DNA of 14,129 nt from Chlorobiota bacterium (GTDB taxonomy: Bacteria > Bacteroidota > Ignavibacteria > Ignavibacteriales > Ignavibacteriaceae). The DNA is taken from contig RHKR01000034.1 of the NCBI GenBank assembly GCA_008363265.1, positions 1 to 14,129 on the forward strand, read 5' to 3'. Below are positions 3,109-14,129 of this stretch, in pieces (positions within the stretch are counted from its first letter, which is position 1; every line of letters begins with the position of its first letter). The notes below the pieces were generated by a model, which made no database searches, had not been told where the DNA came from, and saw only the letters and a list, made by a program, of their open reading frames with translations. The translations under genes and the position numbers were made by a program.

Positions 3109-5075
3109 TGCTAAAGCAGTTTATTGTACTGTTGCTTCTTTCCGTCTCGCTGTTCGCTCAGGCCGTCCCCGACGACTACTTCGAGCGCAACGGCGAAGTC
3201 TATTTCAGATTCCGCGTTTTCAGCAAAAACGAGCTTTCTGAACTAACAAAGATCATTTCGATCGACAAGTATGACGGTAAATTCGTTACCGCGTATGCAA
3301 ACAAAAATGAATTCAGAAAATTTGAGAAATATGGTTACATGGTTGAAGTGCTGCCCCCTCCGGGTGACGTACCCGTTGAGATGGGCAACCCGCGCGACAC
3401 CGGAGCGTGGGATGTATATCCGAGCTACGAAACATATGTTCAGATGTTGAACGATCTTGTGCTCGACTACCCCAATCTCTGCCGCCTGGTTGACGCCGGC
3501 ACAACACCACAGGGCCGCAAGATACTCTTCCTGGTGATCTCCGACAATGTGAATACCCGCGAGCCCGAGCCCCGCTTCATGCACTCATCTTCGATGCACG
3601 GGGATGAGACCGCCGCGTATGTAAACATGATCAGATTTGCCGATTATCTTCTGGCCAACTACAACATCGATCCCCTCGTAACCCGCATCGTTAACGAACT
3701 TGAGGTGTGGATCAACCCCCTCGCCAACCCCGACGGCACTTACCGCTCGGGTAATGCCACGGTAACAGGCGCGAGAAGAGGAAACGCCAACAATATCGAC
3801 CTGAACCGCAACTTCCCCGATCCCGTGATGGGGGACCACCCTGACGGTTACGCATGGCAGGCCGAGACCCAGATCATGATGAACCTTGGGACACAGCACT
3901 ACTTCAACATGTCGGCCAACTATCACGGCGGTGCCGAAGTGGTCAACTACCCTTGGGACAGCCGTTACGCCCGTCACGCTGATGACAACTGGTGGATCAA
4001 CATCTCCCGCAGATACGCCGATACAGTACACTTCTACTGCAACAACAACGGCTACCTGAACGATCTGAACAACGGCATCACCAACGGGTGGGACTGGTAC
4101 ACCGTTTACGGTGGCAGGCAGGACTGGTTCACATACTTCCGTTACGGACGCGAACTTACAGTAGAACTTTCCTCCACCAAACTTGTGCCGGCATCCTACA
4201 TGCCCACGATCTGGAACTACAACCGCGCCGCGTGGCTGAACCTGACAGCCGAACTTCTGACGGGCTTCCAGGGTGTCATTAAAGACCCCTACGGCAATCC
4301 GGTCAAGGCGCAGGTCACGATCCCCAGCCATGATAATGAGCATACTGAAGTCTATTCCGATTCCGCTACCGGTGTTTACGCCCGCATGCTCTACCCTGGG
4401 AATTACATTATCTCATTCTCAAACCCGGACTATTTTACCGAGACCTTTTACAATGTGAACCTTCCCGCGGGACAGAAAGTCACCATCGATCTCATAATGT
4501 ATCCTCTCGGCTGGGTGCCCGTTGAGCTTACCTCCTTCACCTCGGAGGTGGTGCCGGGGGGTGTAAAGCTCTTCTGGAGCACAGGTACCGAGACCAACAA
4601 CCTCGGCTTCGATGTTGAGATCTCAACCGACGGAAGCAACTTCACTTCGGTTGCCACTGTTGAAGGCGCCGGTACCACCACTTCACCCACAAGGTATGAA
4701 AACTTTGTACCCCTTAACACGGCCGGTACTTACTTTTTCCGCCTGAAGCAGAATGACCTCGACGGCACTTCAACTTACAGCAAAGTGATACAGGCAGAGT
4801 ACGGCGTGGTGAAGAATTTCACTCTCGAGCAGAACTACCCGAATCCTTTCAATTCATCGACCGTGCTGAACTTTTCGCTCCCCGCCACTTCCTCTGTAAA
4901 CCTTTCGGTTTACTCCATAATGGGTGAGGAGATCGAGAGAAGGGAACTTGGTCAGATGGAAGCGGGAGATCACAACTACAGATTCGAAGCCTCCGGTCTA
5001 ACCAGCGGAAACTATATATTCAGACTGAACGCGGGCTCATTCACCGCGTCACGAAAATTCACATACCTGAAATAA
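3108..5075 (+). CDS. Secreted M14 zinc carboxypeptidase with C-terminal sorting domain
   Basis: A 655-residue exported metallopeptidase predicted to trim C-terminal residues from peptides. The signal peptide covers about residues 1-19 (hydrophobic core ending LFAQA). The M14 domain spans about 105-380 and carries zinc ligands H164 and E167 in MHGDE, the substrate-binding N-R pair in DLNRNF (about 233-234), zinc ligand H273 in NYHGG, and the catalytic Glu in LTVELS (E353), so all key residues are present. A carboxypeptidase regulatory-like beta-sandwich follows (about 387-467), then a fibronectin-like module beginning PVELTSF (about 471-566). The C-terminal sorting domain begins with LEQNYPNPFN (about 573) and ends SRKFTYLK, typical of type IX or related secretion in Bacteroidota/Ignavibacteriota. 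The ATG overlaps the previous stop (TGATG). It probably works with the downstream dipeptidyl-peptidase in peptide scavenging. Confidence 0.93.
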   Translation: MLKQFIVLLLLSVSLFAQAVPDDYFERNGEVYFRFRVFSKNELSELTKIISIDKYDGKFVTAYANKNEFRKFEKYGYMVEVLPPPGDVPVEMGNPRDTGAWDVYPSYETYVQMLNDLVLDYPNLCRLVDAGTTPQGRKILFLVISDNVNTREPEPRFMHSSSMHGDETAAYVNMIRFADYLLANYNIDPLVTRIVNELEVWINPLANPDGTYRSGNATVTGARRGNANNIDLNRNFPDPVMGDHPDGYAWQAETQIMMNLGTQHYFNMSANYHGGAEVVNYPWDSRYARHADDNWWINISRRYADTVHFYCNNNGYLNDLNNGITNGWDWYTVYGGRQDWFTYFRYGRELTVELSSTKLVPASYMPTIWNYNRAAWLNLTAELLTGFQGVIKDPYGNPVKAQVTIPSHDNEHTEVYSDSATGVYARMLYPGNYIISFSNPDYFTETFYNVNLPAGQKVTIDLIMYPLGWVPVELTSFTSEVVPGGVKLFWSTGTETNNLGFDVEISTDGSNFTSVATVEGAGTTTSPTRYENFVPLNTAGTYFFRLKQNDLDGTSTYSKVIQAEYGVVKNFTLEQNYPNPFNSSTVLNFSLPATSSVNLSVYSIMGEEIERRELGQMEAGDHNYRFEASGLTSGNYIFRLNAGSFTASRKFTYLK

Positions 5076-5096: not shown

Positions 5097-7196
5097 ATGT
5101 TTAAGCAGCTGCTTTTCTTACTGTTTGTCACCACCTCCCTTTTCGCGCAGTACGCGGGGATCGACCTCGATACCGTAAAAGCCGGCAAATGGGACATGGG
5201 AAAGATGTGGACCTTTGAAAAACCACCCGTTGATTACTTCGCGGAGACATATAATTTCCGTCCCTCTGAAGAGTGGTTCACAAAAGTGAGAAAAGCAGCT
5301 CTCCGCTTCGGTGGCGGGTGCTCGGCATCGTTCATCTCCGAAGACGGACTGATAATGACCAACCATCACTGCGCCCGCAACATCGTTTACAAGGGCCAGA
5401 AAGATGGTGAAGACTTCCTCCGCGACGGTTTTTATGCCGGAAGTGACGCAAACGAGCGACGGATCCCCGATCTTTTCGTCGAACAGCTCGTGTACATCGA
5501 AGACATTACCGACAAACTGAACGACGCCCTCCTCACCGCTAAAACCGGTGAGGAGAAGATCGAAATTAAGAAGGCAAAGTCGGAAGAACTGATCCGCGAA
5601 GCTGAAGAGAAGAACCCCGGGCTCGAGTTCCAGGTGGTCCCCCTCTACAACGGCGGAAGAAACTCACTCTACGGTTATAAAAAATACAATGATGTGCGGC
5701 TTGTCTTTGCCCCCGACCTCAGAACTGCCAAACTCGGTGGTGACTACGACAACTTCACTTTCCCCCGTTACGGGCTCGACTGCATGTTCTTCCGCGCTTA
5801 CGAAGACGGCAAACCTGTAAAAACCGATGACTGGTTCGCGTGGAGCGAAAAAGGTGTCGAGGAAGGTGAGGCTACATTCGTTATCGGTAACCCCGGCAGC
5901 ACTTCGAGGATCAACACGATCGCGCAGATGGAGTTCGAACGCGACTACCTCAATCTCCCCGTGGTTGAGTGGCTGAGTGAACTCTACAAGATCATCGAAG
6001 ATCAGGTTCTCAACGGCAACACGGAGAATTACAAACTTATAGCCGAACTCTACTCGATCGGCAACGGACTCAAGGTTTACGACGGCATCTACAAAGGCCT
6101 CCAAGACCAGTACCTCCTCGCCCGCAAGAAGGATTTCGAAAAGAAATTCAAAGCTGCCGTTATGGCCGATCCCGCGCTTAAAACAAAGTATGGTCACATT
6201 TGGGATGAGGTAGCCGAGGGGCGTGAGAAACTGAAACCGATCGCCCGCGAGCTTTTCGGGTATAACTTCAACCGCCGTTATTCACCCGAACTGATGCGCG
6301 TTGCTTCAACTCTCGTCACCATCGCCGAGACAAAGAAGCAGTCACCCGATAAATACTCCGAAGCAAAACTTGACTCGATCGCGGCGACCTTCTTCCCCGC
6401 CTCTTTGGACAAAGAGACTCAGAAAAGATATCTTCAGGTTCAGGTGAACCTTATCATCCGCAATCTTGGCAGCAACAAAGAACTCATGGATATGATGTTC
6501 GGCAGCAAAACGGGCAAGGAAGCACTTGAGCACCTCCTCACCAACACGAAGCTGACCGACAAGGCATACCGCGAGGGACTCCTCCGCGGAAGTGCCGATG
6601 ATGTACTTAAGTCGGACGACCCCCTGATCAAATTCATCCTCACGGCAAAGAAGAAATTGATGGAGTACGGCAAGATCAACAAGGAAGTGCTTGCCCGCGA
6701 CCAGGTGAACAACGCCATGCTCGGCGAAGCCCTCTTCAAAGTTTATGGTGAGTCGATCCCACCCGACGCAACCTTCACCCTCCGCATAAACGACGGTGTG
6801 GTGAAAGGTTACAACTACAACGGCACCACCGCCCCTGTAAAAACAACCTTTTATGGTGTGCTCGACCGATACCACTCATTCAACAAGCGGTTCCCCTTCA
6901 ACCTTCCGAAGATCTGGGAGAACCTGCCGAAAGAGTTCGATCTTTCAACACCGCTTAACTTCATCACAACCAACGATATCATCGGCGGCAATTCCGGCAG
7001 TCCCATGATCAACAAGGAAGGCAAGATCGTCGGTCTCGTCTTCGACGGCAACATCGAGTCGCTCACCGCCGACTTCATCTACACCGACGAAGCCAACCGC
7101 GCCATCGCCGTCCACTCCCAAGGCATGATCGAAGCCATCTCCGATCTCTACGGTGCCAAAGCGCTGGCTCAGGAGATTTTGAAGGGGAAGAGGTGA
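5097..7196 (+). CDS. S46 family dipeptidyl-peptidase, DPP7-like
   Basis: A 699-residue serine exopeptidase predicted to release dipeptides from the N terminus of peptides. The signal peptide is about residues 1-18 (ends LFAQ). The chymotrypsin-like fold parts are visible: TNHHCA with catalytic His (H91), the GGDYDNFTFP motif supplying the catalytic Asp (about 214-223), and GGNSGSP with the nucleophile S633. Cysteines C75 and C92 match the family disulfide around the active site. The residue 18 after the serine, which sets P1 preference in this family, is Gly (G651 in FDGN). That is the DPP7 pattern (hydrophobic P1) rather than the Arg of DPP11 (acidic P1); this rule is family knowledge. AGGAG at 5082-5086 precedes the ATG by ten bases. 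It is the last gene of the gmhA run. Its final 87 bases recur at 9038-9124. Confidence 0.93.
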   Translation: MFKQLLFLLFVTTSLFAQYAGIDLDTVKAGKWDMGKMWTFEKPPVDYFAETYNFRPSEEWFTKVRKAALRFGGGCSASFISEDGLIMTNHHCARNIVYKGQKDGEDFLRDGFYAGSDANERRIPDLFVEQLVYIEDITDKLNDALLTAKTGEEKIEIKKAKSEELIREAEEKNPGLEFQVVPLYNGGRNSLYGYKKYNDVRLVFAPDLRTAKLGGDYDNFTFPRYGLDCMFFRAYEDGKPVKTDDWFAWSEKGVEEGEATFVIGNPGSTSRINTIAQMEFERDYLNLPVVEWLSELYKIIEDQVLNGNTENYKLIAELYSIGNGLKVYDGIYKGLQDQYLLARKKDFEKKFKAAVMADPALKTKYGHIWDEVAEGREKLKPIARELFGYNFNRRYSPELMRVASTLVTIAETKKQSPDKYSEAKLDSIAATFFPASLDKETQKRYLQVQVNLIIRNLGSNKELMDMMFGSKTGKEALEHLLTNTKLTDKAYREGLLRGSADDVLKSDDPLIKFILTAKKKLMEYGKINKEVLARDQVNNAMLGEALFKVYGESIPPDATFTLRINDGVVKGYNYNGTTAPVKTTFYGVLDRYHSFNKRFPFNLPKIWENLPKEFDLSTPLNFITTNDIIGGNSGSPMINKEGKIVGLVFDGNIESLTADFIYTDEANRAIAVHSQGMIEAISDLYGAKALAQEILKGKR

Positions 7197-7265
7197 CCCT
7201 TTTAAATGTGAAATGTGAAATGTGAAATGTTATTTGGCGGGGGTGTTTTTAAGGTGGGGGTGAAC
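7110..7265 (+). repeat. Direct repeat, left copy (S46 gene 3' end plus flank)
   Basis: Starting at GTCCACTCCC within the peptidase gene and running past its stop to GGGGGTGAAC, this segment matches 9038-9185 on the same strand. The coding part (87 bases) differs at seven positions by my count (about 92% identical). The non-coding part is more diverged and the left copy is about eight bases longer, mainly because of its 7-mer array. Confidence 0.9.
7204..7231. repeat. Seven-base tandem repeat, four units
   Basis: AAATGTG three times followed by AAATGTT, in perfect period seven, beginning seven bases after the S46 stop codon. The equivalent place in the right-hand duplicate (from about 9131) has only a degenerate trace, so the array expanded in this copy or decayed in the other. 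Confidence 0.9.
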
Positions 7266-7290
7266 CACTAAAGGGGGAATAGAAAGAGTT

Positions 7291-7329
7291 TAACCCCGGC
7301 TGGAGAGAGATTTCCGGCCGGGGGTTTTT
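7291..7329 (+). terminator. Intrinsic terminator of the gmhA-peptidase operon
   Basis: AACCCCGGCTGGA pairs with TCCGGCCGGGGGTT across a short AGAGAT-type loop, giving a GC-rich stem of about 12 pairs with a G.T wobble and one slipped G. It is followed by TTTTT on the plus strand. It lies about 95 bases after the S46 stop and should end the upstream operon before the AAA/nuclease gene. Confidence 0.85.
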
Positions 7330-7356
7330 AGTATGAATTTCCCGGATCAGTAGAAA

Positions 7357-7388
7357 TTTGGTTCGTGCAACTATTTAAGGTAAAATTC
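7357..7388 (+). promoter_or_regulatory. Weak candidate promoter for the AAA/nuclease gene
   Basis: TTTG at 7357-7360, then 20 bases, then TAAAATTC, a six-of-eight match to TAnnTTTG, about 33 bases before the ATG at 7421. An alternative -7 box is GATATTTG at 7390-7397. A promoter is expected here because the gene follows a terminator, but the exact site is a guess. Confidence 0.3.
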
Positions 7389-7420
7389 TGATATTTGCAT
7401 ATCACTTTTGAAACTTTGAA

Positions 7421-8965
7421 ATGAAACGGCTCCCGTTAGGAATACAGACTTTTTCGCAGATCATTGAAGAGCAGATGGTATACATCGACAAGACGATGTA
7501 CATCAAGCCTCTGGTAGATGGTTACAAATATGTCTTTTTATCCCGCCCGCGCAGGTTCGGAAAATCACTGTTTGTTTCCACGCTGCAAGAGTACTTCCGT
7601 GGAAACCGTGAACTCTTCAAGGGGCTCGCGATCGAAACACTTCAGACCGGGGAATGGGTCGAGTATCCCGTAATTAAGCTTGATTTTTCCAGACTATCAT
7701 CCGTGAATGGCACCGAACTTAGCGCGACACTTCGAAATATTTTGACTGAATGCGGGAATGAATTCGGTGTCGAAGTACGAGGCGATGCCGATATCGAGTT
7801 CTTCTCATCGCTGGTACTGAATATCCACCGTAAATTCAAGCAGCCGGTCGTTATAATCATCGACGAATACGATAAGCCGATTGTTGACCGGCTGGGAGAT
7901 CACGCTATAGCCTCAGGGAACCGGCAGGTCCTTAGGAATTTCTTCTCGGTAGTAAAGTCTTTGGATGAGTTCATCAAGTTTATGTTCGTGACCGGTGTCA
8001 GCAAATTCACCAAGGTTTCGCTTTTCTCGGGCTTAAATCAGATAACTGACATCACCTTTAACAAAAAATTTGCCGGGATCTGTGGCTACGATCAGAAGGA
8101 GCTTGAGAAGCACTTCGAACAACACATCGAAAATGTGGCAGTGGATACCAAACTTAAAAAAGGTGCCCTTCTCAAAGAATTAAGGAAATGGTACAATGGT
8201 TACAGTTGGGATGGTAACCTGAGACTCTACAACCCTTTTTCGATCCTGAGTTTCTTCGACAGCGGAAGCTTCCAGAATTTCTGGTACAATACGGGAACCC
8301 CATACTTCCTGGTTGAACTGATCAAAAGAGAAAAATTTGATATCACTGCAACCGGGAACATGATAGCTGTTGAGGAATCGCTGAGTTCGGACGACCTAGA
8401 CCGACCCCAGTTAAAAAGTCTCCTGTTCCAAACCGGTTATTTGACCATTAAAAAGCGAAACCGTCAGGAGTACACAGATTATTTTGAACTGGGGTTCCCT
8501 AACCACGAAGTGGAGTCTTCGTTCAGCAGATATCTTTTTGCTGAAATGACAAACACCGAGGCTGACCTGACTGGGATCTATGCAGCTGAGATCAAGGTAG
8601 CACTTCAACGGGGCGATTTCGAGACTTTCGAAAAACATCTCAAATATCTGTTCGCAAAGATTCCCTCCAATCTTTTCATCTCTGAAGAACGCTATTTCCA
8701 TTCACTTTTTATAATGCTTGCTTCACTGATCGGGATCGACCTCGAGGCTGAGGTAAATACGAATATCGGCCGTATTGATGGGGTGATAGAATTCCCGGAT
8801 AAGATCTATTTGGTCGAGTTCAAGTATAACAAATCTTCCGTGTTGGCGGTAGACCAGATAGTCGCCAGGCGATATAGTGAGAAGTACACTACCACCGGGA
8901 AAAAATTGATCATGATCGGTATCAATTTTTCGAGGGAAAATATAGAGATTTTGATCCGGGAGTAG
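7421..8965 (+). CDS. AAA-ATPase with C-terminal PD-(D/E)XK nuclease-like domain
   Basis: A 514-residue protein of the 'AAA-ATPase-like / PDDEXK_9' family (recalled as PF09820 plus PF08011), whose molecular role is not established. The N-terminal P-loop is the family's unusual SRPRRFGKS (41-49). Walker B is VVIIIDEYD (143-151), followed by the conserved TGVSKF (191-196) and a WYNGY element (257-261) in the middle. The C-terminal nuclease-like core shows GRIDGVIEF (D453) and VEFK (E466-x-K468), so the catalytic residues seem intact. The length is normal for the family. These genes occur in many paralogous copies in Bacteroidota and some other phyla, often solitary, which suggests mobility or a conflict role; that is inference. 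Here it stands alone with its own flanks, between two direct copies of the S46 3' end. No Shine-Dalgarno is seen; the AT-rich leader is usual for the group. Confidence 0.9.
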   Translation: MKRLPLGIQTFSQIIEEQMVYIDKTMYIKPLVDGYKYVFLSRPRRFGKSLFVSTLQEYFRGNRELFKGLAIETLQTGEWVEYPVIKLDFSRLSSVNGTELSATLRNILTECGNEFGVEVRGDADIEFFSSLVLNIHRKFKQPVVIIIDEYDKPIVDRLGDHAIASGNRQVLRNFFSVVKSLDEFIKFMFVTGVSKFTKVSLFSGLNQITDITFNKKFAGICGYDQKELEKHFEQHIENVAVDTKLKKGALLKELRKWYNGYSWDGNLRLYNPFSILSFFDSGSFQNFWYNTGTPYFLVELIKREKFDITATGNMIAVEESLSSDDLDRPQLKSLLFQTGYLTIKKRNRQEYTDYFELGFPNHEVESSFSRYLFAEMTNTEADLTGIYAAEIKVALQRGDFETFEKHLKYLFAKIPSNLFISEERYFHSLFIMLASLIGIDLEAEVNTNIGRIDGVIEFPDKIYLVEFKYNKSSVLAVDQIVARRYSEKYTTTGKKLIMIGINFSRENIEILIRE

Positions 8966-9037
8966 GATCCGGTCATTGCAAGCCTGGCCTGCCGCCAATG
9001 TGGGCTCATCTATTCGCATTTGATGCCTCATGGTACG

Positions 9038-9124
9038 GTCCACTCCCGGGGCATGATCGAAGCCATCTCCGATTTCTACGGCGCCAAAGCGCTCACTCAG
9101 GAGATTTTGAGGGGGAAGAGGTGA
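9038..9124 (+). pseudogene. S46 dipeptidyl-peptidase 3' remnant
   Basis: These 29 codons, including the TGA stop, encode VHSRGMIEAISDFY... ending LRGKR, the same as the C terminus of the intact peptidase except for Q to R, L to F, A to T and K to R. Four of six changed codons alter the residue, which fits relaxed selection. The frame can be read back to an ATG at 9022, but without any catalytic domain, so I regard it as a fragment with no enzymatic role. Confidence 0.8.
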
Positions 9125-9185
9125 CTCTTTTGAAGTGTGATCTTTGAAATTTTTGGGCGGGGGTTGGTTTAGAGCGGGGGTGAAC
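9038..9185 (+). repeat. Direct repeat, right copy (S46 3' end plus flank)
   Basis: This matches 7110-7265 from GTCCACTCCC through the stop to GGGGGTGAAC. The homology begins sharply: bases before 9038 are unrelated to the S46 gene, so this is a 3' fragment rather than a whole paralogue. The two G5 runs at 9159 and 9176 keep the 17-base spacing of the left copy. Confidence 0.9.
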
Positions 9186-9187
9186 AA

Positions 9188-9208
9188 CTGAGCATATTGA
9201 GGGCTCAG
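9188..9208. promoter_or_regulatory. Inverted repeat upstream of McrB-like gene
   Basis: CTGAGC and GCTCAG form a perfect six-base inverted repeat separated by ATATTGAGG, 44 bases ahead of the chosen ATG. It could be an operator for the restriction operon or a weak RNA hairpin. It begins just after the right repeat copy ends and has no T tract, so it is not a standard terminator. Confidence 0.35.
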
Positions 9209-9251
9209 AGGGGAAGCGAAGAAATTTATAATTAAAAGAGTGGAGTTAAAA

Positions 9252-10691
9252 ATGCCGGGACAGCTGGAAAAAATAAGACATGAAGACATTATCAAGGCTA
9301 TTGAACTAATTGACACAGACGGAGTTCCTCCTGACGCACAATCGATATACTATGACCTACTGCATAATAACAGGCGATATCCACCAAAATTAGTGATTTC
9401 TATCGCTCACAAATTCGCTACGGGAGAACTATTACCGAGAGATACTTTCCCTGGGGGGAAAGGGACTAAGGAGTTCAAACTCTTGGAGAAATATGGGTTT
9501 GTGATAGTAAATAAGGACCCGAACTTTGATTATAAAAAACAAATTTTAAATATTCAGCAGCAAAAAAAGAATATTGGGTTTTCAACAATTGCGTTGAAGA
9601 ATGATTTAAAAAATGCCGGGCTTTACTATAGCAACACCCTAATTGACCGATTCATTGGGTCATTACTCACCAAACCATTTGTTCTGCTAACTGGGTTATC
9701 CGGTTCGGGTAAAACCAGACTTGCGCAATCATTCGCTGAATGGATATGTACGGACTCTTCTCAGTACAGGATTGTTCCAGTAGGAGCTGACTGGACAAAC
9801 CGTGAACCTTTATTGGGGTATCCAAATGCTCTCGATCCAGGATCATATATTCACCCTGACTATGGGACACTTAGACTGCTTCTGGATGCTTCCAAACCGG
9901 AAAACAGGGGCAAACCATATTTCTTAATTCTCGATGAGATGAATCTGAGTCATGTCGAAAGATATTTCGCCGATTTTCTGAGTGCCATGGAATCAAATAC
10001 ACCGATAAATCTGTTATCCAAATCAGGTGAAAAACAATCTGTCCCAGAGACAGTTAAACTCCCCTCAAACCTTTTCATAATCGGAACCGTTAATATCGAC
10101 GAGACCACCTACATGTTCAGTCCAAAAGTACTTGACAGAGCCAATGTGATTGAGTTTCGAATCACAGAAAAAGCCATCAATATTTTCCTTAATCAGACTG
10201 ATGTAAAGAAACCCGGATCGATTGAGAGAAAAGGTGCAAGAATGGCATATAAATTCGTTGAACTCGCAACCGATCAAAGCATTACACTAAAATCAAAAGA
10301 ATACTTCTCAGAAATTCTGTCCAAGTTTTTCATCGAACTAAAAAAAGTGGGCGCTGAATTTGGTTACCGTTCAGCGTTCGAGGCTCTCAGATTCGCGGCA
10401 GTAATGAAAAAGACCGCCCCAGACTGGACTGACGATACCATTATGGATGCGATAATTCTCCAAAAATTACTGCCAAAACTTCACGGTTCGCGCAGAAAAT
10501 TGGAACCTGTACTGAAAACACTTGCAAAACTATGCATGGTGGATCCGGATTCATTCGAAACACTAATTAAATCCGAGTATCAAACTGACAGAGATGAAGG
10601 TGATTATCACTTTCCGGAATCATACGAAAAGATCAGGAGGATGTATAATAACCTGATCGATAATGGTTTTACCAGTTTCGCAGAAGCATAA
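9252..10691 (+). CDS. McrB-like AAA NTPase (type IV restriction motor subunit)
   Basis: A 479-residue NTPase of the McrB/AAA_5 group, predicted to power a partner nuclease against modified DNA. The N-terminal part (about 5-90: HEDIIKAIELID...RYPPKLVISIAHKFATGE...LLEKYGFVIV) resembles the head domain found on ScoMcrA and other type IV restriction proteins, probably the substrate-reading module (recalled, moderate certainty). The AAA core has Walker A GLSGSGKTR (about 148-156), the McrB-typical VGADWTNREPLLGY (about 177-190), Walker B FLILDEMN (about 224-231), sensor GTVNIDETT (about 278-286) and an arginine in VLDRAN (about R296). The start is the ATG at 9252, chosen because GGAG at 9242-9245 sits six bases upstream. 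The frame is open from a GTG at 9240, which would consume that ribosome site. AT-richer than 800-7196, consistent with acquisition. The stop is eight bases before the partner gene. Confidence 0.88.
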   Translation: MPGQLEKIRHEDIIKAIELIDTDGVPPDAQSIYYDLLHNNRRYPPKLVISIAHKFATGELLPRDTFPGGKGTKEFKLLEKYGFVIVNKDPNFDYKKQILNIQQQKKNIGFSTIALKNDLKNAGLYYSNTLIDRFIGSLLTKPFVLLTGLSGSGKTRLAQSFAEWICTDSSQYRIVPVGADWTNREPLLGYPNALDPGSYIHPDYGTLRLLLDASKPENRGKPYFLILDEMNLSHVERYFADFLSAMESNTPINLLSKSGEKQSVPETVKLPSNLFIIGTVNIDETTYMFSPKVLDRANVIEFRITEKAINIFLNQTDVKKPGSIERKGARMAYKFVELATDQSITLKSKEYFSEILSKFFIELKKVGAEFGYRSAFEALRFAAVMKKTAPDWTDDTIMDAIILQKLLPKLHGSRRKLEPVLKTLAKLCMVDPDSFETLIKSEYQTDRDEGDYHFPESYEKIRRMYNNLIDNGFTSFAEA

Positions 10692-10699
10692 GCCTGTAG

Positions 10700-11494
10700 A
10701 TGCCGGATCATATAGTATTTCCCATTTCACTTGCCGATAAAAGTGAGATAGAGCTAAAAGTATTTCCTGAAAGCAAGATTCAGCAGACCTTGTTTCGGAT
10801 ACCTCGCGAGGAGGCAATCGAAGAGAACGAGGCAGAACTTCAGATAGTGGAAGGATTCACATACGAATACCTGCTTACTGAGGGATATTGCTTTGCCGAC
10901 AGCAATAAATTGCTCATTCCTTCAAAGATAAATTCCAACCTTGGCAGAATAGTACCAAATACTTTTGTAGGCCGGACAAAATTGACTGTACTAAAGGTTG
11001 GTGAAGAAAAGCCTGTTGGAGAGTTCTACCTCGAAATCAGGTCTATTAAAACCAGTTACCGGAATGATTACAGAACAATGCTGAAGGATATTTCAGACTA
11101 TTGCATTGATCTTATATTCCAATCTGAATCCCCAGTTATTCAGAGCTTCACAGTTGATCATGAAGTAGATTCTCGCTCCCTTTATCAGAAATTTTCTTTC
11201 CTAAAATCAATTCTTGACTCAGACGAATTTCATGAAGCTGTTGCAAGGATCACTAGTTCTCCTGTTACAGGTTGGATGTTCAATGAAGCAACTCGGGACA
11301 TCAGAAACGCGAAGCGGTTAGGAACAAAATCGCTTCGTCAACTTGTTGGGGCCAGTCGAAGAGTCCACCTTCCACAAAGTCACCCACTCCGGGGACACCT
11401 GGATAGACACACCAGAAAACAGGTTTATAAAGTACGCTTTGCAGTCGTTCCTACTTTTGGTGGATACAATCAAGCAAAAAACAAAAGATTATGA
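10700..11494 (+). CDS. DUF2357 nuclease partner of McrB-like protein, N-terminal part (frame-disrupted)
   Basis: This frame carries the N-terminal part of a DUF2357 protein, the McrC-like partner that usually follows such McrB genes. It begins with a beta-rich domain (about 1-110) and passes through the helical region with NAKRLGTKSLRQLVGASRRVHLPQSHPLR, typical of DUF2357. After about residue 231 (base 11392) the frame loses sense and ends at 11494 in basic, unfamiliar sequence. The continuation lies in the +1 frame as 11343-12923. Removing one G from GGGG at 11391-11394 joins SHPLR directly to DTWIDTPENRF and gives one 740-residue protein. The start at 10700 is eight bases after the McrB stop and without a clear Shine-Dalgarno, so translation is probably coupled. 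It is either a real disabling mutation, a sequencing error in a G run, or slippage-controlled expression. Confidence 0.82.
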   Translation: MPDHIVFPISLADKSEIELKVFPESKIQQTLFRIPREEAIEENEAELQIVEGFTYEYLLTEGYCFADSNKLLIPSKINSNLGRIVPNTFVGRTKLTVLKVGEEKPVGEFYLEIRSIKTSYRNDYRTMLKDISDYCIDLIFQSESPVIQSFTVDHEVDSRSLYQKFSFLKSILDSDEFHEAVARITSSPVTGWMFNEATRDIRNAKRLGTKSLRQLVGASRRVHLPQSHPLRGHLDRHTRKQVYKVRFAVVPTFGGYNQAKNKRL

Positions 11495-12923
11495 TCTGAA
11501 AACTGAGGCTTCCCAATTATTAAACAAGATTGAGAATCATCTCTCGCATTCTTTGTTCAAAGGTGTTTCGAATATTCAAACAATTCCATACAACAACCCC
11601 GTTTTACAGCGGAGAGATGGGTATCGGGAAGTTTTCAGAACATGGCTAATGATGTCGCTTGCTGCAAAGTTAACCTGGTCTGCTGCAGAAGAAGATGTGT
11701 ATGGTGCCGGCAAACGAGATGTTGCGAATCTCTACGAATATTGGGTTTTCTTCAAACTTCTCTCAATTGTTACTGACCTTTTCCAACTAAAAGCTCCCGA
11801 CATCTCAAGCCTCATCGAATTAACGGAAAATGAAATCTCTATCCGGTTGAAGCAGGGGAAGTATATCCCACTGCAAGGAGTATTTAATTCTCCGATAAGA
11901 AAGCTTAATGTGCAATTCAGCTATAATAAGTCTTTCAGTAAGAATTCAAAGTACCCTGAGGGCGGAAGTTGGTCAGAAACCTTCAGGCCTGATTACACAC
12001 TCAGTGTCTGGCCATTCGGAATAAAGGAGGAAGAAGCTGAGCAGCAGGAGTTGATAGTCCATATTCACTTCGATGCAAAATACAGAATTGAGAACCTAAG
12101 CAGCATTTTCTCCACGGATGAGGCGACCGAGGAAGAAGTGATCGGGAATAAAACCTCCCCAAAACGAATTGATATAATCAAAATGCATGCTTACCGCGAT
12201 GCCATCAGAAGGACTGCGGGGGCATATATTATTTACCCGGGTGACAGACCAATTCAAAAGAAAGGATTTCATGAACTGATCCCTGGTTTGGGGGCATTCA
12301 CTCTTAACCCAACTCCTAATGATAATGGAGTTGACACTGTAAAAAGATTTATAGTAGATGTACTTCATCATTTCCAAAATCGGGCAACACAAAGGGAAAG
12401 GTATTCGTACCAAACATTTGCAATTCACCGGGAACCACCTGTAGATTATATTCATGCACCTATGCCCGAGGCTATTGGTGCTAACCGTGGTTTATTGCCG
12501 GATGACACAATAGTGTTGGTGGGATATTACAAAGATGAAGAGCATTTGAAGTGGATCATGGATAAGCATTTATACAATGTAAGAGTTGGCTCGGAACGAG
12601 GAGCTATAGGACTCGATTTGAATTTGATCTCAGCTTCTTACCTTATATTGCACACCAAAGGAAGCATAAGGAGTAACAGGATGCTTAAAATCCGTCCTAA
12701 CCAACTACAGATTATGACCGGAGCGGAGTTAAAAATTTTGAACTACCCAAGACCGTGGAGCAAGAACTACATCCTCTTCTCCCTCGAAAAAACCATAGAA
12801 AAGGAATTTGAAAATTTGAGCTGGGATCTAACAAAGTTGGAAGGGTTCAACAATCGTGAACTTAGGGAGGCCCCACTCTATGTTACCCTCACCCACCTAA
12901 TGAAAGTTGTAGTGAAGGAATAG
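11343..12923 (+). CDS. DUF2357/PD-(D/E)XK nuclease partner, C-terminal part (frame-disrupted)
   Basis: Continuation of the DUF2357 gene in the +1 frame. Sense resumes at DTWIDTPENRFIKYAL (from base 11394), a hallmark of these proteins, so the TTG at 11343 is not a true start. A helical segment follows, then the nuclease core with FRPDYTL (D at residue 217 of this frame, about 431 of the joined protein) and HIHFDAKYR (D244-x-K246, joined about 458-460). The helix KMHAYRDAIRR after it is characteristic of the McrC-type fold. Catalytic residues look intact. A further domain of about 140 residues (from about 385, DDTIVLVGYYKDEEHLKWI) follows the nuclease and is not part of the minimal McrC; I do not recognise it with confidence. 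The joined protein would be the DNA-cleaving subunit driven by the upstream McrB-like NTPase. The stop at 12923 is followed at once by the palindrome TGAATTAATTCA. Confidence 0.85.
   Translation: MLGPVEESTFHKVTHSGDTWIDTPENRFIKYALQSFLLLVDTIKQKTKDYDLKTEASQLLNKIENHLSHSLFKGVSNIQTIPYNNPVLQRRDGYREVFRTWLMMSLAAKLTWSAAEEDVYGAGKRDVANLYEYWVFFKLLSIVTDLFQLKAPDISSLIELTENEISIRLKQGKYIPLQGVFNSPIRKLNVQFSYNKSFSKNSKYPEGGSWSETFRPDYTLSVWPFGIKEEEAEQQELIVHIHFDAKYRIENLSSIFSTDEATEEEVIGNKTSPKRIDIIKMHAYRDAIRRTAGAYIIYPGDRPIQKKGFHELIPGLGAFTLNPTPNDNGVDTVKRFIVDVLHHFQNRATQRERYSYQTFAIHREPPVDYIHAPMPEAIGANRGLLPDDTIVLVGYYKDEEHLKWIMDKHLYNVRVGSERGAIGLDLNLISASYLILHTKGSIRSNRMLKIRPNQLQIMTGAELKILNYPRPWSKNYILFSLEKTIEKEFENLSWDLTKLEGFNNRELREAPLYVTLTHLMKVVVKE
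11391..11394 (+). other. Inferred frameshift site in the DUF2357 gene (GGGG run)
   Basis: With the four Gs as given, the 10700 frame reads cgg-gga-cac and loses homology-like sense. With three Gs it reads cgg-gac-acc-tgg-ata-gac and enters the DTPENRF motif. No other single-base change nearby keeps both LPQSHPLR and DTPENRF in one frame so neatly. Confidence 0.7.
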
Positions 12924-13623: not shown

Positions 13624-14129
13624 ATGATACTGTCTATTCAATCAGCAATTCAAAATTTCCGGGGAATCGGAGCCATCACTACTGTGTTGATCTCACTCTT
13701 CGTGCATCAGAGTTCATCTGCCCAGACTGCAAATCCTGATATGGCGATAACCGACTCTTACGTGTTATCTGCAATTATACAGGGAGACTACACCTACATC
13801 GGAGGATCGTTCACATTTGCCGGGAAAAACAGCGGTTACTGCGCCAAGGTAACCACGACAAATTCATCGATAAATAAACTCTACTCCAAAGTTAACGGTG
13901 CAATATACGCCTGTATTCCGGACGGGGCCAACGGATGGTATATCGGAGGAAATTTCTCGGCTGTTGGCGATGCTTCAATCTCGTATCTCGCCAGAATAAA
14001 GCAGGACGGTACTCTGGACGCCACCTGGAATCCGCAGCCGGCCAATATTGTTTATTCTCTGGCACTTAGCGGAACTGATCTCTTCGCCGGCGGATCATTT
14101 ACCTCTGTCGGTGGATCCTCCCGCAACAG
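13624..14129 (+). CDS. Secreted repeat (beta-propeller-like) protein, 5' part (truncated by window edge)
   Basis: Open from the ATG at 13624 to the right edge, about 168 residues visible. The N terminus is a signal peptide: a short n-region, hydrophobic core IGAITTVLISLFV (about 15-27) and likely cleavage after SSA around residue 33. Repeated units follow, built around an aromatic-GGSF core: YIGGSFTFAGKNSG, YIGGNFSAVGDASI and FAGGSFTSVGGSS, spaced about 45-60 residues apart and linked by stretches such as LARIKQDGTLDATWNPQP. This is the pattern of delta-60/DUF5122-type propeller repeats in large exported proteins (recalled), which in this group often end in a secretion-sorting domain that would be outside the window. 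Ligand and role cannot be told. The weak GGA at 13612-13614 is the only ribosome-site candidate, and an in-frame TAG at 13579 limits upstream extension. Confidence 0.82.
   Translation, partial: MILSIQSAIQNFRGIGAITTVLISLFVHQSSSAQTANPDMAITDSYVLSAIIQGDYTYIGGSFTFAGKNSGYCAKVTTTNSSINKLYSKVNGAIYACIPDGANGWYIGGNFSAVGDASISYLARIKQDGTLDATWNPQPANIVYSLALSGTDLFAGGSFTSVGGSSRN

Follow-up and report, generated by a model that had tools for sequence, protein, structure and literature searches.

How does the 3′ end of one gene come to stand twice, in the same orientation, on either side of another gene? The question is raised by a stretch of 14,129 nucleotides from a Chlorobiota bacterium of the family Ignavibacteriaceae (contig RHKR01000034.1; hereafter the window, meaning the whole stretch), in which an S46 peptidase gene is followed by a gene for a predicted AAA-ATPase/PD-(D/E)XK nuclease (hereafter the AAA gene) and then by a second copy of the last part of the S46 gene. 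We give about an even chance to the explanation that a one-gene unit of the DUF1703 family was gained horizontally behind the S46 gene, through a recombination that used homology at one end and was illegitimate at the opposite one, and that the repeat in the window is the scar of this event; more generally, our comparisons suggest that genes of this family spread singly, in units of one gene each.

The repeated S46 gene end and the gene it encloses

An ungapped repeat search paired positions 7110–7206 with 9038–9134 at 91% identity and 7230–7269 with 9150–9189 at 78%, and self-BLAST returned a single match, 7110–7269 against 9038–9189 on the same strand (82%, E 1.7e-39). The two copies were identical in 132 of 160 alignment columns, and the local alignment score of the repeat was 176, compared with at most 30 in 60 shuffles. 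In both copies the homology begins at GTCCACTCCC, takes in the last 28 codons and the stop codon of the S46 gene (80 of 87 bases identical), and continues for about 73 bases beyond the stop. The duplicated gene end reported in the preliminary description is thus real and extends slightly beyond the limits given there, and its count of seven differences in the coding part was correct. Six codons differ, the right copy having R for Q, F for L, T for A and R for K, plus two silent changes. The congeneric genome G002 agrees with the right copy rather than the left at both silent codons, and the congener G003 does so at one of them; three of the four nearest S46 relatives (P0121, which is 96% identical, P0123 and P0124) share the R at codon 25 of the right copy. 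Because codons and residues of the right copy agree in this way with those of relatives, neither copy is simply the parent of the other.

Besides the AAA gene, the unit between the copies has no ATG-started frame longer than 20 amino acids. A hairpin followed by a T run, read by eye at about 7289–7329, stands behind the left copy and is absent behind the right, whose end lies 50 bases upstream of an McrB-like gene at 9240. When the window's genome was searched with positions 7110–7330, 40 of the 42 matches fell on about 40 bases around 7191–7242, in a run of TGTGAAA-type heptamers; runs of this kind occur at some 40 places of the genome, on both strands. The concern of the preliminary description that the noncoding part might be a common intergenic repeat applies to the heptamer part only and not to the rest of the repeat.

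The AAA gene matched PF09820 in its N-terminal part with 218 bits, against a curated cut-off of 26.1, and PF08011 in its C-terminal part with 55.9 bits (cut-off 25.5). Residues R42–S49 and D148–D151 (Walker motifs) and D453, E466, K468 and Q479 (D...ExK) were invariant in 15 sequences, and Walker A RPRRFGKS and Walker B DEYD motifs have been described for DUF1703 proteins (PMC1913061). By its motifs and domain matches, the product is a DUF1703 family member and a predicted ATP-driven nuclease. Among the scored database candidates, 7996 of 8000 matched at E ≤ 1e-30. A sequence search of the PDB found no relative, PADLOC has no model for the protein, and its predicted fold (pLDDT 84) matched only generic AAA+ proteins, with TM-scores of at most 0.32 on the query.

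The relatives, found by name, were Ignavibacteriaceae, and three of them (G001, G002 and G003) are congeners of the window's genome (G000, in which the window is contig C74). PF09820 matches at E ≤ 1e-20 occurred in 6 of 80 genomes of the family, with 4 to 13 in each (13 in G003 and G005, 12 in G014, 8 in G002, 6 in G027 and 4 in G000; none in G001), and a class-wide search placed 5 of 245 genomes above the cut-off. The window's protein is 91% identical to P0001 and 47% identical to the nearest full copy within G000. Copies from the same genome are mostly 42–60% identical, the closest pairs reaching 77–89%, and on these identities we rejected recent within-genome transposition. In a comparison that covered the fetched loci and 120 proteins listed from the database, the nearest relatives of the copies usually lay outside their own genome or at an orthologous place. 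Multicopy, horizontally acquired DUF1703 genes have been described in Cardinium cCpun, with 25 paralogs (PMC6387759).

Recurrence of the scar, and sites empty in sister genomes

Five loci, the window included, have an AAA gene between direct copies, 95–160 bases long, of a host gene's 3′ end. Besides the window, these are L106 in G000, behind a TPR protein gene (138 of 145 columns identical, unit of 1800 bases); L091 in G003, behind a sodium:alanine symporter gene (81 of 111, 1939 bases); and two loci in G005, L213 behind an arginyl-transferase-like gene (ATE_C; 109 of 125, 2041 bases) and L214 behind an EcsC gene (89 of 95, 1953 bases). The five host genes are mutually unrelated and the repeats vary in length and sequence, while all five units carry both PF09820 and PF08011, their other ATG-started frames not exceeding 58 amino acids. 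The AAA gene is co-directed with the host gene in two loci and opposed to it in three; in L214 the host and AAA frames are both interrupted. In L214 and L106 the match between copies ends at the stop codon, which in L106 is TGA in one copy and TAA in the other, and in L213 it ends 5 bases beyond the stop; the repeat in L091 is too decayed for its end to be located. Because the same scar stands at four loci with four other host genes, the AAA/nuclease gene emerges as the common factor. The preliminary description had seen in the window a scar of insertion or recombination in which one of the two gene ends is intact and the other a fragment, and this reading gains from the same anatomy at four more loci. 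Of its two proposals for what moved, an unseen carrier or the AAA gene itself, the emphasis on the AAA gene holds good, but a carrier with its own integrase does not, since the five units lack any other frame above 58 amino acids and the target gene is different each time.

For counting, we used a direct-repeat score threshold of 45, set after the first three gene-tail cases were known; the shuffle test of direct repeats covered 23 loci from G000, G002 and G003. A recount omitted AAA genes that had a second one no more than 800 bases away (11 in Chlorobium-like genomes, 0 in the other sets) and genes with less than 300 bases of flank. In Ignavibacteriaceae, tail-copy repeats surrounded 5 of 34 lone AAA genes versus 2 of 156 other genes (Fisher p 0.0023), in a small sample of phylogenetically non-independent loci. 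Control genes exceeded the threshold in 1 of 201, 3 of 52 (alongside a 38-gene set), 1 of 36 and 2 of 16 cases (alongside a 21-gene set). Nine genes of the 38-gene set were above threshold: the gene tails L213 and L214, four in one tandem AAA array (L230), L240 beside another AAA gene, L239 with 28 bases, and L242 with a duplicated part of a sugar dehydratase fragment. Four of the six above threshold in the 21-gene set were promoter regions of AAA arrays (L293 twice, L297 and L298), although for L297, whose AAA gene has no called companion within 800 bases, this is our own reading; the other two were a pair of related genes (L303) and an intergenic repeat (L295). Locus L067 (score 41) had a short interspersed repeat in common, and 22 loci of other Bacteroidota gave three repeats of 38–60 bases, none of them gene tails.

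Other arrangements occur as well. Chlorobium-like genomes contain head-to-tail AAA/nuclease arrays with similar upstream regions (L230, L240, L293 and L298). In two species a 59-base repeat surrounds an AAA gene plus small frames (L189 and L190). In the viral-collection contig L251, two 82-base copies of a hairpin region flank an AAA gene (3803–3884 and 5605–5686, 75 of 82 identical), and in the viral contig L266 near-identical 40-base direct repeats do so (246–285 and 2332–2371); a gene at 4329–5474 of L266, about 2 kb from its AAA gene, resembles a tyrosine recombinase by eye.

Insertions were also seen from the other side, as sites that are empty in a sister genome. We queried by their flanks 12 AAA loci, chosen for having no counterpart among the sister genome's fetched loci or for special interest (L091), and in seven of them (L085, L092, L093, L094, L095, L097 and L099) both flanks lay within about 1 kb in the sister; in L087, L089, L091, L101 and L102 they were not adjacent. 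Direct comparison added an eighth empty site, at the second AAA gene of L086. Each of the eight inserts is one gene carrying the PF09820 and PF08011 domains (inserts of 1643, 1847, 1803, 2037, 1994, 1719, 1631 and 1642 bases), in place of which the sister has, in the same order, 58, 18, 40, 0 (with a 4-base overlap), 244, 37, 0 and 1 other bases. At L085, L092, L094 and L097 the site is empty in a further genome too, and therefore gain is favoured. Four insertions lie just behind a stop codon, at 0 (L099), 7 (L085), 35 (L093) and 42 bases (L086). None of the eight has a long duplication, on which ground a fixed long target duplication was rejected. With 0–244 bases lost or replaced, or a 4-base overlap, at these junctions, the outcomes fall on both sides of zero, and over all 13 sites they range from 244 bases lost to 160 duplicated. 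A classical transposon does not fit either: six units had terminal inverted matches of only 3–6 bases, and the target duplication is not fixed, ranging from none to 160 bases.

How the unit may have arrived

On the route we favour, homology-facilitated illegitimate recombination (HFIR), a donor piece would pair with the recipient chromosome via the S46 3′ region carried on it, and its other end would be joined illegitimately at a point within the S46 tail of the recipient. The full-length S46 gene would thereby retain a tail, and the recipient's old tail at 9038–9189 would stay behind the new gene as a dead fragment. A join inside the tail would leave a copy and a join beyond it would cost bases; the observed outcomes, which reach from a loss of 244 bases to a gain of 160, agree with this route. 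Repeats ending at or near the stop codon, as in L106, L213 and L214, would also be expected, since the donor's AAA gene would lie just behind the stop. We infer the route, the donor, and that it was the AAA rather than the McrBC side that moved in the window.

Several observations weigh against this explanation. We found no donor with an AAA gene behind S46, and no mosaic break at the S46 3′ end among the S46 relatives, compared as proteins only. Both copies end in GKR where the nearest S46 relatives, P0121–P0124, have GRK, and the shared GKR would fit a duplication within the lineage equally well. Tight units of one gene each are not expected of random donor pieces, and the duplication lengths (95–160 bases) are more uniform than chance joins would need. 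At the symporter–AAA site, the G000 ortholog is without the far-side tail copy that G003 has. In Chlorobium-like genomes, repeats surrounded 5 of 34 AAA genes versus 1 of 29 others (p 0.14), and in viral contigs 2 of 16 versus 1 of 24 (p 0.35), with no clean gene tail in either set; read singly, these cases were other kinds of repeat or, in L251, a terminator.

The one-gene units are better explained if the gene moves itself, which we nevertheless consider unlikely: the AAA+/PD-(D/E)XK protein would cut behind genes with a wide stagger and insert its own gene, fill-in leaving the 95–160-base duplication, and duplications that cover a gene end would survive because the host gene then stays whole. 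Both domains are present in all 14 units examined by Pfam, with nothing but the AAA gene in the units; the family is patchy and multicopy (6 of 80 genomes, with 13 copies in G003, 8 in G002 and 0 in G001); there are clean single-gene insertions at eight sites, and in L251 an 82-base duplication surrounds an AAA gene. Yet the eight empty-site insertions lack a long duplication, the terminal inverted match is at most 6 bases in six units (3–6, with offsets of up to 3 bases in the outer 40), no motif common to the unit ends was seen by eye, and there is no sign of a recent burst, same-genome copies being mostly 42–60% and at closest 77–89% identical; moreover, a duplication ending at or near a stop codon in three of five loci is unexpected of a random stagger. 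Slightly more doubtful is the mirror image of the favoured route, in which S46 and the AAA gene were neighbours first and a piece of a second strain, beginning within its S46 tail and including the McrBC-like genes, was attached behind the AAA gene by an illegitimate join, while homology held it at the core gene on the right. The sequence behind S46 is variable in four of four genomes, the hairpin and T run stand behind the left copy only, and the right copy carries 73 bases of flank of its own ahead of the McrBC genes, all of which would suit such a history; it is harder to reconcile with four other loci where copies bracket the AAA gene while the far-side neighbours differ, and with three AAA-less islands (behind S46 in G002 and G003, behind the symporter in G002) that lack a tail copy.

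Integrase-borne elements typically have direct repeats at the 3′ ends of genes, and the copies might be attachment sites used by a recombinase acting in trans, an arrangement that the 40-base repeats and nearby integrase-like gene of L266 (by eye, about 2 kb off) bring to mind. We hold this improbable, given five units without an integrase frame, five unrelated targets, and repeats unlike in length and sequence. An integrase-borne element proper is not supported, because its duplicated gene 3′ end is present but a recombinase gene (other frames at most 58 amino acids) and a fixed target are not. The remnant of a tandem S46 paralogue, raised as an alternative in the preliminary description, is very improbable, although G000 does have other S46 genes: in three of three congeners the site has a single S46 tail and lacks a further S46 gene, the fragment lacks any upstream gene part, and the scar also occurs with four other genes. 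Equally faint is the chance of an artefact of a fragmented metagenome bin; G000 is in 627 contigs and 82% complete, but similar scars occur in other assemblies, and the copies, with 28 of 160 columns unequal when gaps are counted, have diverged too far for a collapsed or false join.

The variable S46 flank and comparison with known systems

The S46 gene has orthologs in G001, G002 and G003 (80–87% identical), and what follows them differs. In G001 about 370 bases separate S46 from a conserved gene; G003 has a 195-aa gene, a SLFN_AlbA_2 gene and a ParA-like gene; and G002 has about 14 kb with a 193-aa homologue, DndC, a DndD/PbeC-like gene, DndE, PbeA and further PbeC-like matches. None of these three stretches holds an S46 tail copy or a second S46 gene. 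The conserved gene of G000 is found on contig C481, where a DUF5122-like frame precedes it. The stretch behind S46 is thus variable in each of the four genomes, with defence genes in at least two (L047, L048, L049, L080 and L105). As the preliminary description had anticipated for relatives, all three congeners have a single S46 tail, without this AAA gene and without the McrBC-like genes there; the latter are better seen as separate cargo of the variable site. The features of the window are collected in Table 1.

Table 1. Positions of genes and repeat features in the window
Feature	Position	Strand	Evidence
S46 peptidase gene, intact; last 87 bases are the left coding copy	5097..7196	+	PF10459, E 1.4e-175
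Left copy: S46 tail, stop, ~73 bases of flank	7110..7269	+	Repeat search, self-BLAST, alignment
TGTGAAA-type heptamer run within left copy, genome-wide simple repeat	7199..7240		
Unit between copies, 1768 bases	7270..9037	+	Self-comparison
AAA-ATPase_like + PDDEXK_9 (DUF1703) gene, 514 aa	7421..8965	+	PF09820 E 1.4e-64, PF08011 E 4.5e-15
Right copy: S46 tail fragment, stop, flank; without gene start or body	9038..9189	+	Repeat search, self-BLAST; matches residues 671-699 alone
McrB-like AAA_5 gene, neighbouring cargo	9240..10691	+	PF07728; PADLOC PDC-M26A E 1.8e-53
DUF2357/PDDEXK_7 gene, neighbouring cargo	10700..12923	+	PF09823 over two frames, PF04411

The DUF2357/PDDEXK_7 gene is broken by a frame change near 11375–11406, from decay or sequencing error. 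A DUF5122-type frame at 13624–14129 leaves the window's end and a similar frame starts contig C481 (L105, 2–2215); the two are probably one gene split by the assembly. The 3′ flank of the sodium:alanine symporter gene is also variable, with an AAA gene in G003 and G000; behind the symporter G002 has about 14.5 kb with four large frames and no tail copy (L180, 2446–16443).

DUF1703 proteins are widespread and in places very numerous, and evidence for single gains behind genes turns an unexplained expansion into a testable question of mobility, for which the gene-tail scar provides a simple marker of recent gains; the S46 flank is, in addition, a new variable site with defence cargo. Should the genes after all move themselves, unlikely as we judge this, they would be autonomous one-gene mobile elements, and the tail duplication would let the element land without killing the host gene.

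Among known systems, integrative elements at gene 3′ ends likewise restore the gene end on one side and leave a fragment on the other, but differ from the loci described here, which have no integrase, no fixed target and one cargo gene. As defence islands, the S46 flank holds McrB-like and DUF2357/PDDEXK_7 genes in the window and DndCDE with PbeA/PbeC-like genes in G002; the islands of the relatives are larger cargo without a tail copy, unlike the AAA unit of the window. DUF1703 genes described elsewhere share the two domains and Walker motifs of the window's gene and are likewise multicopy and horizontally acquired; the cited parts of that literature speak of expansion, recombination and transfer, and not of single-gene insertion with duplicated host-gene tails. 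Our literature search found no report of a DUF1703 gene-tail scar, which does not prove that none exists. The closest likeness is to HFIR, described in naturally competent bacteria (PMC5361080, PMC2884548) and, in the cited passages, proposed both for displaced or orphaned gene 3′ parts in Rhs loci and Vibrio T6SS arrays (PMC5361080) and, in PMC2884548, for small variable segments. As described there, its products have one homologous and one illegitimate end and keep the displaced old 3′ part downstream, an anatomy that the window would fit, whereas the unit gained here is repeatedly of one gene family, behind unrelated host genes.

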